From Oscillospiraceae bacterium (lineage in GTDB: Bacteria > Bacillota > Clostridia > Oscillospirales > Ruminococcaceae), in NCBI GenBank assembly GCA_030539275.1, contig JAUNSK010000001.1, forward strand, positions 82,265-116,921: DNA of 34,657 nucleotides, given 5' to 3'. Both the position numbers and the translations under genes were made by a program. Below the pieces are notes generated by a model. It did no database searches. It worked only from the letters and a program-made list of their open reading frames with translations, and was not told where the DNA came from. Positions within the stretch are counted from its first letter, which is position 1. Each line of letters starts with the position of its first letter. Positions 11,659 to 17,295 of the stretch are shown in pieces.

Positions 11659-11964
11659 CTATTTATCTGACCTTTTTACTACAGCAACCGGATCAGTGAT
11701 CAACAATCTGATAACCCATATTACAAGACCGAGTGTAATAGCTGACAAACCAAGAAAAGCATCATTTATCATATCTGTTATGTCAGGAGAGAAGTAATCT
11801 GCGCCGTTTCTGAGATACTCCACTGCCGCATCAACACTCCACATTATTGAAGCCCCCCAGTACATGTAGCAAAGCATTCCGGTCTTCAGAGTTCTGGCCT
11901 TCTCGCTTAAGTACCAGATAAGTGTAACGATAACTGATGCGATAAGTGATATTAAAAGTGTCAT
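11659..11964 (-). CDS. Small three-helix membrane protein, last gene of CODH/ABC operon
   Basis: A 101-residue membrane protein with about three hydrophobic helices (residues 1-20, 30-45 and 70-92) and a charged connecting stretch EYLRNGADYFSPDITDMIND. The frame is open further upstream, but the ATG at 11964 is chosen. It has a GGGAGG ribosome binding site and overlaps the stop of the preceding gene (TAATG), indicating coupling. I know of no assigned function. Its pairing with the 122-residue protein upstream resembles pairs of small membrane proteins in other anaerobes (from memory, unverified). It may form a membrane complex with its partner. Confidence 0.7.
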   Translation of the reverse strand: MTLLISLIASVIVTLIWYLSEKARTLKTGMLCYMYWGASIMWSVDAAVEYLRNGADYFSPDITDMINDAFLGLSAITLGLVIWVIRLLITDPVAVVKRSDK

Positions 11965-12332
11965 TATCTCAGGCCTCCCTGTAAAACTTTCTGTTTTTGA
12001 TCTGCATGAACGGATACATAAGTGATAACAGCCCATATAGAAGTAACTGAAACAGCCATTGCGACCCCTGAAGTCCCCATTTCATAGAGCATTCCGGACA
12101 GGTCAGCAGGATCTGATGCCTTTGTCAGAAACGGGAAAAATGGTGTGATCTCTCCGTGCCAGATATGTTCAAAAGCGAGAAGAACAGAGCCGCCCCATAA
12201 AAAGCCGTTGAGTCGATCAAGATGCTTTGAAAAGCCGTTACTGATCTCATTTTTTAATTCATGTGATTTTATCACTTTTGAAGCTATTGTTGTAGCAACA
12301 GCTTCTGCTGCAGGTACTAAAAAGCAAGCCAT
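11964..12332 (-). CDS. Small membrane protein following cooS homologue
   Basis: A 122-residue protein with two clear membrane segments (about residues 46-58 extending into FEHIWHG, and 88-108) and a hydrophobic N-terminus (MACFLVPAAEAVATTIASKV) that may insert as a third. Between them is a His/aromatic-rich loop, FEHIWHGEITPFFPFL, which could bind metal or a cofactor. The ribosome binding site is AGGAGG, ideally spaced. It lies 15 nt after the CODH-like gene and overlaps the next membrane gene by one base. The function is unknown; the operon suggests a role in the transport or membrane attachment of the CODH-like system. Confidence 0.75.
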   Translation of the reverse strand: MACFLVPAAEAVATTIASKVIKSHELKNEISNGFSKHLDRLNGFLWGGSVLLAFEHIWHGEITPFFPFLTKASDPADLSGMLYEMGTSGVAMAVSVTSIWAVITYVSVHADQKQKVLQGGLR

Positions 12333-12347
12333 ATGTATATCCTCCTG

Positions 12348-14447
12348 TTAATCCCAACCGAGATTTTTTCTTTTTTCTTTCATATCAGCAATAATTTTAC
12401 GGGCAAGTGAAACAGGGTCTGTATCTACATTCATAGTTGAACCGAGCAGATCCTTTGTGCCGTACTTCAGAAATTCTATTACATTTTTTGAACCATATAT
12501 CTGGGCTTCAACACAATGGTATGAGCTGATGCCATTGAGACGAAATCCGAGAGCTGCATCAATACCTTTTTCATTTCCCCATTCAGGAGAAGAAAATGCA
12601 TAAGGCAGTTCATACATAGGGTGTCCGAGCTCATTTGCAATTCCTGCAAAAATTCCGCTTGAGCGTGTATTGTCTATACACTCACCGACGTGCCATACAG
12701 GCGGCAGATCAGTTCCGAGAAACTCTCTTAATGTATCTCCGGCTTTATGTATGCCTGAAACAGCGCAATATCCCAGTTTCATAAGCGGAAACGATGCGCA
12801 GCCGTTAGACAGGATAAGTACATTATTTTTGAGAAGCGTGTCAGCAACATCTGCAATACATTTTTCATATAAGACCTTTGGATTATTACAGCCTACCATA
12901 TTCACGATACCAAGAATTTTTCCGCTCTTAACAGCATCTGCAAGCGGCTTCATGCTGCCGAACCTTCTGTAAATGTATTCAACGGAAAAACCGACTTCTG
13001 CTTCAACTTCGTAAGGCGGGATATAGACAGGTATTCCTTTTCTTGTCTCAAAGCTGTCAATTGCACGTCTTACGATCTTTTCGGCAAGCTCCTTTGTTTT
13101 GCTGATGTTCTCATGATGATGGTCATATTCATATCTTTGCGCACCGGGAAGTCTTGCTGAGTCACTTGTCGTAACAACAACTGTCTTAAAACATTTTGCA
13201 ACTTCCATAATAGATGGGAAAACATCCTGAACATCTGCGACCCAAAGATCCAGTGCACCTGTTGCAAGTACAAGTTCAGCGGACACGGCATTTGAAAGAG
13301 GGATAACACCGCTGTACCTGTACATAGCTGAAAGACCTGAACAGCAGATACCATAAAAACGGATTCCCTTTGCACCTTTCTTCCTTGCAAGTTCTGTCAG
13401 ATCCTCACGCTTTCCGGCTTCAACTATCTGACTGACAAGCAGCGGAAGATGTCCATGAACAGCAATATTGACATATCCCTTTTGCAAAGCACCGATATTT
13501 ACCTTTGAAGTTACTCTGTCACCGACACCAAATAAACTGTCAGTAGCAATAGATGCACCGACAACACCGGAGAATGTAAATGCCAGTCCGCAGCGTAAAA
13601 ACTGCTGCATAATCGATCTCCAGTCACCGTCTGTTGCACAGCCTGATTTATGATAAGCTTCAAATACTTCATGATATGCACTGACAGGGAGGATATCAAG
13701 TTCCTTCCAGACTTTCTGACGTTCAGGTGCTGCACAGGCTGTGATGGTTCTATATTCATCAGGAACACTTCTTGAAAGATCCTCAAGCAATGCATCAGCA
13801 AGATCCTTTGCAACATTTTTAAGCTGTCTGTTTTTCTGCCTGATCCCGAAAGCTTCTGCTGTAGAGCGGATCTTCTGTTCGCCTAATATCGGAATATCAA
13901 GTTTTCCTTCTGCCGCCCACTTTAGTGCAAGCATTACCTCTCTTGCATGCATACCATGCTGTGCAGCTCCTGCAGCAGCACTGCGGAGAAGATTTCGTGC
14001 CACTATCAGATCAGCATCTGCACCGCATACACCTTTCGGAGATTTTGCAGTAATACGGCATGGTCCCATATTGCAGACTTTGCAGCAGATGCCGGCCAGA
14101 CCAAAGTTACACTGTGGTTTTTGCCTGTCGAACCTGTCAAATGCTGTATCGATCCCAAGCTGCTCCATTCGTAAAAGCATTTCTCTTACAGCAGGGTCAG
14201 GAGTCTCATCGATAACATCCTGTTTTGAGGGAAATGTTTTTCTGTATTCATTAACAGCATTCATATAATCCTTTATAAATGCCTGTGGGTCATCGTCATA
14301 ATTATGATCATCAGTATGATGAGAAGCTTTTAAAGTAACTACGGGTATTCCATGTTCATCAAATCCGATCAGGTTACGATGAGAATGAATATGTGAAATA
14401 TCATCATTATGATGATGGTCATGTTCGTGTTCATGTTTCTGGTTCAT
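12348..14447 (-). CDS. cooS: CooS-like anaerobic Ni-type carbon monoxide dehydrogenase homologue, His-rich N-terminus, altered C-cluster ligand
   Basis: A 699-residue homologue of the anaerobic CODH catalytic subunit. D-cluster C113 and C121, B-cluster C122, C125, C130 and C141, and acid/base residues H164 and K627 are all in place. C-cluster ligands are present at H333, C369, C520, C550 and C590, but the Cys expected in the DVQC motif (C333 of Carboxydothermus CODH-II) is Asp (D408, DVQD). The first 24 residues contain nine histidines, with three more by residue 48, a tail absent from typical CooS (about 630-640 aa). The gene follows a NitT/TauT-type ABC transporter 9 nt downstream (ribosome binding site AAGGAG) and precedes two small membrane proteins. 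No cooC, cooF or acetyl-CoA synthase gene is seen. CO oxidation should not be assumed; an altered-cluster activity is possible. Confidence 0.93.
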   Translation of the reverse strand: MNQKHEHEHDHHHNDDISHIHSHRNLIGFDEHGIPVVTLKASHHTDDHNYDDDPQAFIKDYMNAVNEYRKTFPSKQDVIDETPDPAVREMLLRMEQLGIDTAFDRFDRQKPQCNFGLAGICCKVCNMGPCRITAKSPKGVCGADADLIVARNLLRSAAAGAAQHGMHAREVMLALKWAAEGKLDIPILGEQKIRSTAEAFGIRQKNRQLKNVAKDLADALLEDLSRSVPDEYRTITACAAPERQKVWKELDILPVSAYHEVFEAYHKSGCATDGDWRSIMQQFLRCGLAFTFSGVVGASIATDSLFGVGDRVTSKVNIGALQKGYVNIAVHGHLPLLVSQIVEAGKREDLTELARKKGAKGIRFYGICCSGLSAMYRYSGVIPLSNAVSAELVLATGALDLWVADVQDVFPSIMEVAKCFKTVVVTTSDSARLPGAQRYEYDHHHENISKTKELAEKIVRRAIDSFETRKGIPVYIPPYEVEAEVGFSVEYIYRRFGSMKPLADAVKSGKILGIVNMVGCNNPKVLYEKCIADVADTLLKNNVLILSNGCASFPLMKLGYCAVSGIHKAGDTLREFLGTDLPPVWHVGECIDNTRSSGIFAGIANELGHPMYELPYAFSSPEWGNEKGIDAALGFRLNGISSYHCVEAQIYGSKNVIEFLKYGTKDLLGSTMNVDTDPVSLARKIIADMKEKRKNLGWD

Positions 14448-14456
14448 AACTGCTCC

Positions 14457-15230
14457 TTAAATAACATAATCTATATATTCTTCTGTTTTCAGGTTGAAGA
14501 GTTCAAATATTTTATCTCTGACATAGAGAAAGTCAGAGCCTGTTCTGTTGCGGTGTTCTCCGAGAGGAACCTTAACTATACTTTTGATCCTTCCCGGATC
14601 TGCCATCATAACTACTATTTTATCTGCCAGAAAAACTGCTTCTTCAATATCATGTGTTACAAAGATGATGGTTTTCTTTTCTTCTTTTGATATTTTCAAT
14701 ATATCATCCTGCAGTTTCATTCTGGTTATTGCATCCAGTGCACCAAAAGGTTCATCCATAAAAATGATATCAGGATCGACCGCAAGACCTCTTGCAATTG
14801 CTACTCTTTGCTGCTGGCCGCCTGACAACTGTTTCGGATAACGCTTTTCATATTCGCCAAGACAAACAAGGTTTAAATATTTGCGTGCTGTTTTCTTACG
14901 CTCAGATCTGTCCTTTATTTTAGCTTCCAGACCAAGTTCAACATTTTTCAGAACATTTCTCCAGGCAAGAAGTCCATAATTCTGAAAGATAGTAATGTTC
15001 TTTTCACTAGGTTCAAAAACTTCTTTTTCATCTATCTTAATGATTCCGCTGTCTGGTTTTTCAAAACCTGCAAGAGCATTAAGCAATGTGCTTTTACCGC
15101 AGCCGGACGGTCCGAGAAGGCAGATAAACTCACCTTTATGGATATCAAGAGATACCTGGTCAAGTACTGTTACGGATTTACCGGCTTGATGATATGTTTT
15201 GCAGGCATTTTTTATTTCAATATATGCCAT
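14457..15230 (-). CDS. ABC transporter ATPase, nitrate/sulfonate/taurine (NitT/TauT) type
   Basis: A 257-residue ATPase with Walker A GPSGCGKS (40-47), signature LSGGQQQRVAIARG, Walker B IIFMDEPFGALD and switch His in VTHDIEEAVFLADK. The sequence around MDEPFGALDAITR is that of the SsuB/TauB/NrtD subfamily. It energises the permease encoded just upstream; the start overlaps the permease stop (TGATG at 15228-15232), so translation is coupled. The substrate is not evident: the subfamily carries nitrate, sulfonates, taurine, thiamine precursors and related anions, and linkage to a CooS homologue suggests a ligand or cofactor used by that enzyme (inference). Confidence 0.93.
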   Translation of the reverse strand: MAYIEIKNACKTYHQAGKSVTVLDQVSLDIHKGEFICLLGPSGCGKSTLLNALAGFEKPDSGIIKIDEKEVFEPSEKNITIFQNYGLLAWRNVLKNVELGLEAKIKDRSERKKTARKYLNLVCLGEYEKRYPKQLSGGQQQRVAIARGLAVDPDIIFMDEPFGALDAITRMKLQDDILKISKEEKKTIIFVTHDIEEAVFLADKIVVMMADPGRIKSIVKVPLGEHRNRTGSDFLYVRDKIFELFNLKTEEYIDYVI

Positions 15231-15991
15231 CAGCTTATACCTCCCCAGGATCTTAAAATTCGTTTTTCAAGGCTTTTAAGAAGACTGTCAAGAATGATCC
15301 CGATGATCCCGATAACTATAATAGTAGCAAGAAGGATATCTGCACGAATATTATTTCTTGCATCTATTATCTGGAAACCCAGTCCCGACTGTGCACCGAC
15401 CATTTCACCTGCAACAAGGAAGATCCATGATGTTCCGATCGCTAAATGAATACCGTTCGCTATCTGCGGAAATGCCGCAGGCAAAATTACTTTTAAAGTA
15501 AGCTGGGGCTGTCTGATCCCGAAATTCCTTGCAACCTTAAAATATATCGGATCAATACCTGAGACAGCAGATACAGTTGATAACACGACAGGGAAGAACG
15601 CCGCAATAAATATGATCACAATAGCAGGAATATCTCCGATCCCGAACAATAATACTATAAACGGCATCCACGCTGTCGGAGATATAGGACGCAAAAGCTG
15701 AAAAGCAGGATTGATATATTTGTAAACTGACGGTAGTCTGCCCAAAATCAGGCCCAGAACAACCGCTGCAATTACAGATGAAACATAACCAACAGTAAAA
15801 CGATACATACTCGCTTCAATATTTGAAAGCAGGGAACCGTCTTTTATCATTTCGATGAGTGCAAGAAATGACTGAAACGGTGACGGAAAAAGAGTATCAC
15901 TGTAATCGCTCATCAGATATGCTGTCTGCCATAATCCTATCAGCACTGAAACAGAGACTACAGCATTTTTAATAGATATTATTTTTTTCAT
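15230..15991 (-). CDS. ABC transporter permease, NitT/TauT type
   Basis: A 253-residue membrane protein with about six helices. Its cytoplasmic EAA-type coupling loop reads KVARNFGIRQPQLTLKVILPAAFPQIANG, shown here in outline around residues 150-178 (key residues G157, the LP and the final NG). The N-terminal YSDTLFPSPFQSF and the C-terminal GIIGIILDSLLKSLEKR are typical of SsuC/TauC. It sits 15 nt after the binding-protein gene and overlaps the ATPase gene by one base. Confidence 0.92.
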   Translation of the reverse strand: MKKIISIKNAVVSVSVLIGLWQTAYLMSDYSDTLFPSPFQSFLALIEMIKDGSLLSNIEASMYRFTVGYVSSVIAAVVLGLILGRLPSVYKYINPAFQLLRPISPTAWMPFIVLLFGIGDIPAIVIIFIAAFFPVVLSTVSAVSGIDPIYFKVARNFGIRQPQLTLKVILPAAFPQIANGIHLAIGTSWIFLVAGEMVGAQSGLGFQIIDARNNIRADILLATIIVIGIIGIILDSLLKSLEKRILRSWGGIS

Positions 15992-16006: not shown

Positions 16007-16927
16007 TCAATGATAAATAAACTCATCATATGTTGGCGGATCGTCCGAAAGGCCATACTTTTTCACCTTTTCTACAAGCCTGTTATATGTATTTTCTGTT
16101 ATCTCAAGGTCATTATAGGAGATCCATTGCAATGAAGTGTCAAGTATTTCATCACTTTGCTTAAGATATTTTTTAGCAGTTTCTTTTGCAGTATCCTTAT
16201 CAAGACTGTTACCGGCCTGCTTATAGTTTTCAATAAATGTTCTGGCATCGTCTGTACGCGAATCAAGAAATTTATCTGTCAGGACAAGTGCGCAGCAAGC
16301 TGAGTCTTTCCATAATTCTTCTGATGTATATAAAACCTTTCCGGCTTTGCTTGCAACGGCCATTGCACCGAATGGTTCAGCAACACAATAACCATCGATC
16401 TGACCGCTCGCAAGAGCAGAAGGCATTTCTGTTGGTGCAAGTTCTGTTATATTCACATCATCTATTGTCAGACCGCCCTTAGAAAGTGCATCATTAAGCA
16501 GTATGTAGTGAGATGACTGTCTGTGAGGAATTGCAAATGTCTTGCCTTTCAGATCACCGGCACTATTAATTTTATCAGATACAACGATCACATTACCGTC
16601 TCTGTGACCAAGTGCTGCTGCTTTGATTCCTACTCCTTCCTGTTTAGACTTCATTGCAAGTTCGATCAGAACAGATGCACCGTCAACTTTATTAGAATTA
16701 AGTGCATCAAGCAGTTCAGTCCATGAACCAAATTTAACGAGTTCAATATTTAAGCCGCTGGATTCTGAGTATTCATCTGCTTCTTTTAAAACTGCAAGGG
16801 AATGTGTAATCGGAAGATAAGCAATTTTGATCGTATTTTTATCTTCTGTTTTATTTACGCAGGCGGTCAGAGAAGATATAACCAGTACGGATGATATGAG
16901 TATCGGTAACAATTTTATCTTTTTCAT
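16007..16927 (-). CDS. ABC transporter substrate-binding lipoprotein, NitT/TauT type
   Basis: A 306-residue lipoprotein with a signal sequence ending in lipobox LTAC (Cys 23). The mature part has the SsuA/NrtA/TauA-like fold: IKIAYLPITHSLAVLKEA at the start, GKTFAIPHRQSSHYILL, and DGYCVAEPFGAMA, the conserved VAEP hinge motif. The frame can be read from a GTG at 16936, but the ATG at 16927 follows an AAAGGA ribosome binding site and begins a normal MKK signal peptide. It is the first gene of the operon ABC-SBP, permease, ATPase, cooS, two membrane proteins. The ligand cannot be deduced. Confidence 0.92.
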   Translation of the reverse strand: MKKIKLLPILISSVLVISSLTACVNKTEDKNTIKIAYLPITHSLAVLKEADEYSESSGLNIELVKFGSWTELLDALNSNKVDGASVLIELAMKSKQEGVGIKAAALGHRDGNVIVVSDKINSAGDLKGKTFAIPHRQSSHYILLNDALSKGGLTIDDVNITELAPTEMPSALASGQIDGYCVAEPFGAMAVASKAGKVLYTSEELWKDSACCALVLTDKFLDSRTDDARTFIENYKQAGNSLDKDTAKETAKKYLKQSDEILDTSLQWISYNDLEITENTYNRLVEKVKKYGLSDDPPTYDEFIYH

Positions 16928-17023
16928 ATAAATCACTGTCCTTTATTAATGGTCGAAGTGTGCTTCAAACGAGTTTTATTTAATGTGCTTCAGATATGGT
17001 TGCATTATCTGCCGATAAGCATA

Positions 17024-17035
17024 TGATACATATCA
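17024..17035. promoter_or_regulatory. Palindrome upstream of the CODH/ABC operon
   Basis: TGATA-CA-TATCA, a perfect 5-2-5 palindrome about 97 nt upstream of the binding-protein start, between it and the small ORF. It could be an operator for the operon; being A/T-rich, it could also be chance. Confidence 0.3.
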
Positions 17036-17063
17036 AATTAGTAGGCTATATACGCAAAAAAAA

Positions 17064-17210
17064 TTAAATGCACATTGATGAATACACACATAGGTTACTG
17101 CTGTAAGGAAGAAGTGGCATATTAATTCTGCTTTTACCATTCGCAGCTGCAAAAATTTCGTAAACATTGTTATTACTTACGAAGTACATGCGTTTCTGAT
17201 AAGTTTTCAT
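17064..17210 (-). CDS. Small peptide gene, 48 residues, unknown function
   Basis: An ATG at 17210 with an excellent Shine-Dalgarno (GGAGGT, 17218-17223, 7 nt spacing) opens 48 codons ending TAA at 17064-17066. The peptide starts MKTYQKRMYFVSNNNVYEIF, then has a short Ala/Lys stretch and ends in a Ser/Tyr-rich tail with two cysteines (CVYSSMCI). A consensus promoter lies upstream (17267-17295). It lies on the same strand as the ABC/CODH operon, 136 nt ahead of its first start codon, with no clear terminator between. It may therefore be the first cistron or a leader peptide. I recognise no family. Confidence 0.55.
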   Translation of the reverse strand: MKTYQKRMYFVSNNNVYEIFAAANGKSRINMPLLPYSSNLCVYSSMCI

Positions 17211-17266
17211 ACTGATTACCTCCGGTTATGATTGTCTTACTAATCCTATCTATTTAGTATGTAAAG

Positions 17267-17295
17267 ATAATAACATAGTTTCTTTGATGTGTCAA
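17267..17295 (-). promoter_or_regulatory. Promoter of the small peptide gene (and perhaps the CODH/ABC operon)
   Basis: On the - strand TTGACA (17290-17295), 17-nt spacer, TATTAT (17267-17272); the expected start is near 17260, about 50 nt before the peptide ATG. Confidence 0.75.

Follow-up and report, generated by a model that had tools for sequence, protein, structure and literature searches.

The window analysed here, a stretch of 34,657 nucleotides from an Oscillospiraceae bacterium (GenBank assembly GCA_030539275.1, contig JAUNSK010000001.1), contains a run of minus-strand genes encoding a substrate-binding lipoprotein (SBP), a permease and an ATPase of an ABC importer, a homologue of the carbon monoxide dehydrogenase (CODH) CooS, and two small membrane proteins, here referred to as MB1 and MB2 (Table 1). 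A promoter-like sequence and two operator copies precede the SBP gene. Between both operators, 5' of the SBP gene, lies a 48-codon open reading frame (17065-17211, minus strand), possibly a leader peptide or a small gene. It has a good ribosome site, and its C-terminus (NLCVYSSMCI) contains cysteine. The initial annotation had described the operon as differing from classical CO systems, and this holds. Among the genes of the operon, no ferredoxin, hydrogenase or ACS, the usual CODH partners, was recognised. No sulfur gene lies beside the window's own operon, and an Rfam scan of the window gave no match (no SAM riboswitch).

Table 1. Features of the cooS operon, with positions in the window
Feature	Position	Strand	Remarks
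Promoter-like TTGACA - 17 - TATTAT	17267..17295	(-)	by eye
Operator 1	17245..17261	(-)	directly after promoter; motif as upstream of cysK; PWM 24.3
Operator 2	17029..17045	(-)	about 100 bases 5' of SBP gene; PWM 22.2
Substrate-binding lipoprotein (SBP), NitT/TauT-type ABC importer	16007..16927	(-)	ATG start; GTG at 16936 possible
ABC permease	15230..15991	(-)	PF00528; TauC/SaoP-like, below cut-offs
ABC ATPase	14457..15230	(-)	PF00005; taurine/nitrate-type, below cut-offs
CODH homologue (CooS-like; clade B group B-1 type by features)	12348..14447	(-)	699 aa; TIGR01702 503.8 bits, cut-off 478
His-rich N-terminal extension, residues 5-24, MNQKHEHEHDHHHNDDISHIHSHRN	14376..14435	(-)	group B-1 feature
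Codon GAT, Asp408, at CODH-II Cys333 position	13224..13226	(-)	alignments
MB1, small membrane protein	11964..12332	(-)	EHxWHGE motif; recurs beside cooS
MB2, small membrane protein	11659..11964	(-)	start uncertain; after MB1 in relatives

In the CODH homologue the complete C-cluster set of one His and five Cys is broken at a single place: Asp408 stands in the column of CODH-II Cys333, both when solved CODHs are aligned by phmmer and when CODH-II is aligned by MAFFT, as the initial annotation had read. The remaining C-cluster ligands are kept, namely His333 (H261 in CODH-II), Cys369 (C295), Cys520 (C446), Cys550 (C476) and Cys590 (C526), and so are the B- and D-cluster cysteines (113, 121, 122, 125, 130 and 141) and, in the alignment, the proton-transfer residues His164 (H93) and Lys627 (K563), again in line with the first reading of the sequence. 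That reading had also held the change to be specific, and the relatives agree. Among 103 non-redundant proteins of the Asp/Glu type, a group that is defined by residue 408 itself yet forms one branch in the tree, position 408 is Asp in 97 and Glu in six, and because of this distribution Asp408 is evidently not due to chance or sequencing error. All ligands but one are invariant in these 103 proteins, as are Glu589 (Ser525 in CODH-II), Ala631 (Ile567) and an extra cysteine, Cys561. A cysteine elsewhere that could fill the position, named in the initial annotation as evidence that would count against it, was looked for in the alignment. None was seen adjoining Asp408, Cys419 being an ordinary conserved cysteine, and Cys561 is also present in 11/11 relatives that keep Cys333; it therefore did not arise as a replacement. 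Cys561 may serve as a cluster ligand. Ile567, which we take to face the bound substrate in CODH, is replaced by Ala in the Asp/Glu type and by Gln in the relatives that keep Cys333 (hereafter the Cys type), and the change to Ala suggests room for a substrate larger than CO. His445 and His644 are likewise invariant in 103/103 Asp/Glu-type proteins; the Cys type and the aligned canonical enzymes have other residues at these two positions. A reaction other than CO oxidation, as had been suggested at the outset, appears likely.

The substitution itself is not new, as it has been catalogued within clade B group B-1. The passages of Inoue 2019 (PMC6344411) on this group define it by an acidic residue (Asp or Glu) in place of the second C-cluster cysteine together with a His-rich N-terminus, describe NitT/TauT ABC genes near clade B CODHs and suggest metal import. 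Asp408, the His-rich N-terminus and the NitT/TauT ABC transporter are all found in the window, and an ABC transporter of this kind is present in 20/20 fetched contexts of the class (L052-L071), a count that leaves out one partial match (G724). In the passages on clade B in Bohm & Land 2026 (PMC13056359), the function of the clade is regarded as not deducible from its genomic environment, no clade B enzyme is said to have been characterised, possible degeneration is mentioned and the same transporters are reported (64%); where neighbours above 10% are reported there, ABC transporters and regulators are given for the clade and sulfur genes are not listed. A search for literature tying CODH to S-box or sulfonate systems, cysteine synthase or sulfur starvation found nothing on point among the records listed, and passages from a paper on CymR of C. 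acetobutylicum (PMC3828012) name no CODH. What would be new here is the proposed function, sulfur assimilation.

This proposal starts from the genes next to cooS in related genomes. Of the 73 Asp/Glu loci that have 2 kb or more on each side, 17 have genes of the cysK and/or O-acetylhomoserine sulfhydrylase (OAHS)/cystathionine-synthase families no more than 5 kb away, on the same strand in 16 and including cysK in 10; the other 56 have no such gene within that distance. The remaining 30 of the 103 loci were dropped (<2 kb on a side), and two of these, L089 and L131, also carry cysK. The Cys type, about 36-39% identical, came to light in searches that started from the binding protein instead of the CODH. 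In it, cysK directly adjoins the cooS-ABC genes on the same strand in 10/10 loci with flanks, one of which (L071) came from a different search; the two cysK genes scored against NCBIfam encode cysteine synthase A (TIGR01139, 467 and 489 bits, cut-off 351). At other CODH loci with flanks, neighbours of the cysK/OAHS kind were found in 0/4. The most complete arrangement, in a Ruminococcus flavefaciens MAG (L086), reads cysK-OAHS-SBP-permease-ATPase-cooS-MB1-MB2, with cysK (454.8 bits) and OAHS (643.9 bits) both over their cut-offs; other orders are cysK-SBP (L087), cooS-OAHS-cysK (L099), cysK-MB1 (L106) and ATPase-cysK (L131), and cystathionine-synthase-like genes stand 5' of cooS in L062, L064, L067 and L070. 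Since these gene orders differ, the sulfur linkage was probably made several times; the Asp/Glu loci are related to each other and not independent. From the three cysK-family genes in the 3.68 Mb of the window's own genome, we estimate that a cysK within 10 kb would be met by chance at about 1% of loci. As far as gene neighbourhoods tell, the sulfur setting is common to the Asp- and Cys-type members.

In a tree of 62 rows, all ABC-linked CODHs form one group (support 100/98), within which the Cys type (100/99) separates from the Asp/Glu type (100/100); two CooC-adjacent Asp proteins make up a basal branch (95/77), and there is one Glu subclade (100/99). The outgroups are few and long, and on the tentative rooting that they provide the Cys-to-Asp change would have arisen within an existing sulfur setting, as a refinement of a repurposed CODH and not as its cause. 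The initial annotation had treated the substitution as the source of an altered role, a view that does not fit with relatives in which Cys333 is intact and which share the transporter and the cysK neighbourhood. An order-level search (295 genomes, E 1e-120) returned the window's own gene only. The loci named here are the best 80 of at least 516 confirmed matches, and among the matches listed relatives up to 85-91% identical occur across families, in Ruminococcus, Butyrivibrio, Pseudobutyrivibrio and MAGs assigned to other phyla; rumen MAG contigs may owe their phylum labels (Campylobacter, Alistipes, planctomycetes) to faulty binning. Ruminococcus albus 7 also carries an ABC-cooS operon on its plasmid pRUMAL02 (NC_014825.1), which is typed as conjugative; where MB1 and MB2 would stand, this operon has two small hypothetical genes. 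High identity across taxa and the plasmid copy make horizontal transfer likely.

A second link to cysteine metabolism is regulatory. A de novo EM motif search of 85 non-redundant upstream regions (97 before removal of near-copies) found a palindrome with the core CMTATNNNNNTARTAKG, with an EM score of 720.4, against 128.0, 136.0 and 130.3 when the set was shuffled three times; the operator exceeds the 99th percentile of shuffles in 71/85 upstreams, an in-sample count, as the model was trained on the same 85. Outside the training set, in 24 carrier genomes, a site scoring at least 17 precedes 13/36 cysK genes vs 2/3600 shuffled upstreams. Six of the 36 genes come from the four genomes that gave the idea (3/6 with a site) and 30 were fetched later (10/30); two matches in G035, of which one contains stop codons and the other is 40% identical, were excluded together with a G455 match for which no locus was given, G433 has no cysK at E 1e-90, and G563, G625 and G664 belong to one genus. 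In 13/24 carrier genomes no cysK site reached 17. The best cysK of the window's own genome has a site at 22.7, and no site of at least 17 was found in 93,045 background bases of that genome. The strict operator pattern is not enriched there (11 matches vs 17 for the reversed control), and no sulfur genes were recognised, by eye from ORF starts, at the nine strict-pattern sites outside the operon. In G714, the operator-bearing cysK is divergent from a gene for an Rrf2-family regulator and followed downstream by OAHS; the regulator, scored in this genome only, is over the cut-off for the Rrf2 superfamily and below that of the CymR model (116.5 vs 195). We call the operator CymR-like because it stands upstream of cysK and next to an Rrf2 gene, and not on the strength of a published consensus; a CymR operator sequence was looked for in CymR-related literature passages and not found in them. 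One organism, C. luticellarii, carries a SAM riboswitch 5' of cooS (89.5 bits, gathering 44.4; L057 and L149 represent one and the same contig). No such element was found before cooS at eight other loci, and an Rfam scan of eight more gave no match. The ABC genes are not near cooS in seven loci, and the operator is absent from two of these (L139 and L140). The other five (L119, L121, L122, L125 and L110, from Lachnoanaerobaculum/oral Lachnospiraceae and one Ruminococcus MAG) have an Asp-type cooS with the operator, and their transporter may be located elsewhere or be a different one. The neighbours, the operator, the riboswitch and the transporter beside a flavoprotein (see below) all speak for sulfur assimilation, a role of the operon that we consider very probable.

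How the altered enzyme is supplied with metal can be approached through CooC and the His-rich tail. CooC (E 1e-25) was not found in 22/25 Asp/Glu genomes, including the window's own (assembly 96% complete); it is present in 5/5 Cys-type genomes tested and stands beside cooS in two Asp-type genomes, G852 and G1118. These two Asp-type proteins have no His-rich tail (2 and 1 His), and neither has the Cys type (0 or 1 His). The tail and CooC tend to replace each other across these genomes, although G714, G684 and G735 possess both kinds, and this replacement suggests that the altered enzyme still receives nickel; on balance we lean towards nickel being present in the CODH homologue. MB1 and MB2 gave no Pfam or NCBIfam match at E 0.01, and the predicted structure of MB1 (pLDDT 75, pTM 0.45) matched no fold at E 0.001. 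The EHxWHGE motif is invariant in 20 MB1 sequences. Outside cooS operons, MB1/MB2 adjoin the nickel-pincer genes larE/larB/larC in 11 (L230, L232-L235, L239-L242, L244 and L245) of 20 contexts, fetched from 33 non-own match rows, and this too speaks for nickel. The two proteins are possibly a new nickel-linked transporter or metal-handling pair.

The transporter, for its part, is not restricted to CODH loci. In L181, L183 and L199, a similar ABC type lies beside a gene for an acyl-CoA-dehydrogenase-like flavoprotein with no CODH nearby, and in L181 a methionine-biosynthesis PLP gene is divergent next door. No NCBIfam name could be given to the flavoprotein (L181 scores 47 bits to acryloyl-CoA reductase, far below the cut-off, and L183 and L199 have none); it is possibly an oxygen-dependent counterpart of the CODH-type system. 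The SBP scores below the cut-off of the SsuA model TIGR01728 (129.9 vs 163.5 bits) and has three conserved His. Its nearest solved relative is 3UN6, solved with zinc and possibly the CymR-regulated S. aureus protein NWMN_0117.

Several of these observations would also suit the suggestion of Inoue 2019, namely that nickel or another metal enters through the ABC transporter and is stored by the His tail, for a modified CODH of unknown reaction: the tail itself, the conserved His of the binding protein with the zinc in 3UN6, and the occurrence of MB1/MB2 beside nickel-pincer genes elsewhere. We nevertheless regard metal import as unlikely, as the same transporter type is found with flavoproteins in the three loci that have no CODH, the operator is common to the operon and cysK, cysK and OAHS are neighbours, and Cys-type relatives without the tail keep the transporter.

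Alternatively, the enzyme could be an active CODH whose oxidation of CO provides the low-potential electrons with which another enzyme reduces sulfur, and the conserved proton-transfer His and Lys as well as the full ligand set and the CooC of Cys-type relatives are consistent with this. It is made improbable by the missing C-cluster ligand and the Ala in place of Ile567 in 103/103 Asp/Glu proteins, by an operon in which none of the electron-transfer partners or ACS was recognised, and by the distribution of sulfite reductase: PF01077, the siroheme sulfite/nitrite reductase family, was not found in 12/25 Asp/Glu genomes, the window's own included. A further explanation, with still a little less in its favour, is a reductase resembling hybrid cluster proteins (HCPs), with an Fe-S-O cluster that reduces hydroxylamine, NO or similar nitrogen species. 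Here the parallel is CooS-V, in which, according to the passages of PMC9311411 that describe it, one C-cluster cysteine has likewise become a carboxylate at another position, and the lack of a recognisable CooC in most Asp/Glu genomes would agree with it. The initial annotation had drawn the same comparison and had proposed assays with hydroxylamine. However, the cysteine replaced in CooS-V is a different one, and we have rejected the analogy on this ground: at the Cys295 position the window's protein has Cys369 and not Glu. The protein also scores far below the cut-off of the HCP model TIGR01703 (19.5 vs 360.8 bits), the gene context points to sulfur and not nitrogen, and an ABC importer makes little sense for substrates such as hydroxylamine or NO. 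In addition, the genome already encodes two HCPs (L029 and L030, on C8 and C34), with hydroxylamine reductase over the cut-off, for which reason a hydroxylamine role was put low. Least probable of all is a degenerate or regulatory relic that binds metal or senses redox within the cysteine regulon without catalysis, for although a ligand is lost, CooC is mostly not found and degeneration is raised as a possibility in the clade B passages of Bohm & Land (PMC13056359), simple degeneration is rejected on the constraint across 103 sequences, in which all ligands but one together with Glu589, Ala631 and Cys561 are invariant, on the identities of up to 85-91% across families among the matches listed, and on the likely horizontal spread of the gene together with its operon.

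We return to sulfur assimilation, within which the CODH homologue is, in our judgement, likely to be the sulfur-releasing catalyst. The reading that we favour, and consider reasonably probable as a whole, is that the operon is a cysteine-starvation system in which an anionic sulfur compound is imported and its sulfur freed by the CODH homologue. In this model, an Rrf2 (CymR-type) repressor would release the operator when cysteine is scarce, and the lipoprotein-dependent ABC transporter would take up a small anionic sulfur compound. Electrons would reach the CODH homologue via its D and B clusters, and the altered C-cluster, with Asp408 for one Cys ligand and Ala631 for Ile567, would cleave the compound and set free reduced sulfur. 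In the simplest case this would be sulfide, from which CysK and OAHS would then make cysteine and homocysteine. Nickel supply would probably be the task of the His-rich N-terminus and of MB1/MB2, and the CODH homologue would fill, in the absence of oxygen, the role that flavin enzymes seemingly have next to this kind of transporter elsewhere. CysK and OAHS both use sulfide. In the genomes in which PF01077 was not found, sulfite would be a dead end and sulfide is the likelier product; in the 13/25 Asp/Glu genomes that have PF01077, sulfite is a possible product. The leading candidate substrates are small sulfonates, suggested by the transporter family, and one-carbon thio-anions, suggested by the bicarbonate-like binding fold and the CO2-like chemistry of the scaffold. 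More tentatively, and at somewhat less than even chances, we propose that a Ni-Fe-S enzyme on the CODH fold, in which a carboxylate stands for one cluster cysteine and the pocket is opened, reductively cleaves a C-S bond to give sulfide for the synthesis of cysteine, as the oxygen-free counterpart of flavin desulfonases, and has spread horizontally in rumen and gut bacteria, in one case on a conjugative plasmid. A CODH relative would then have a task apart from CO and hydroxylamine chemistry.

If the enzyme does liberate sulfur, sulfur chemistry would be added to the CO/CO2 and hydroxylamine reactions known for this fold, and part of the answer would be at hand to how strict anaerobes gain organic sulfur without oxygenases. 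Caution would then be needed before such genes in metagenomes of gut and rumen are assigned to CO metabolism, and a candidate function would be available for the clade B branch, which the passages of PMC13056359 dealing with it leave unexplained.

Compared with known systems, nothing was seen in the protein that sets it apart from the group B-1 CODHs, and the difference lies in the proposed role, sulfur assimilation rather than metal import. CooS-V of Carboxydothermus resembles it as a CODH scaffold with one C-cluster cysteine turned into a carboxylate and, in the passages of PMC9311411 on its active site, differs in the residue, with Cys295 changed to Glu there and Cys333 to Asp with Cys295 kept here. 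Passages of PMC5480029 place a TauABC-type operon of S. aureus in the CymR regulon. The Ssu/Tau sulfonate systems and the CymR regulon of Bacillota likewise combine an importer of NitT/TauT kind with cysteine-linked control and feed cysteine synthesis; in the Ssu/Tau systems, the catalytic step is performed by an oxygen-dependent flavin enzyme, whereas a CODH homologue occupies that place here. The methylthio-alkane reductase MarBHDK, a nitrogenase-related enzyme under SAM-riboswitch control, frees sulfur by reductive C-S cleavage. It too is a metal-cluster enzyme with kinship to another family, and its fold and cofactor are unrelated to those of CODH, so that the likeness is one of analogy only.
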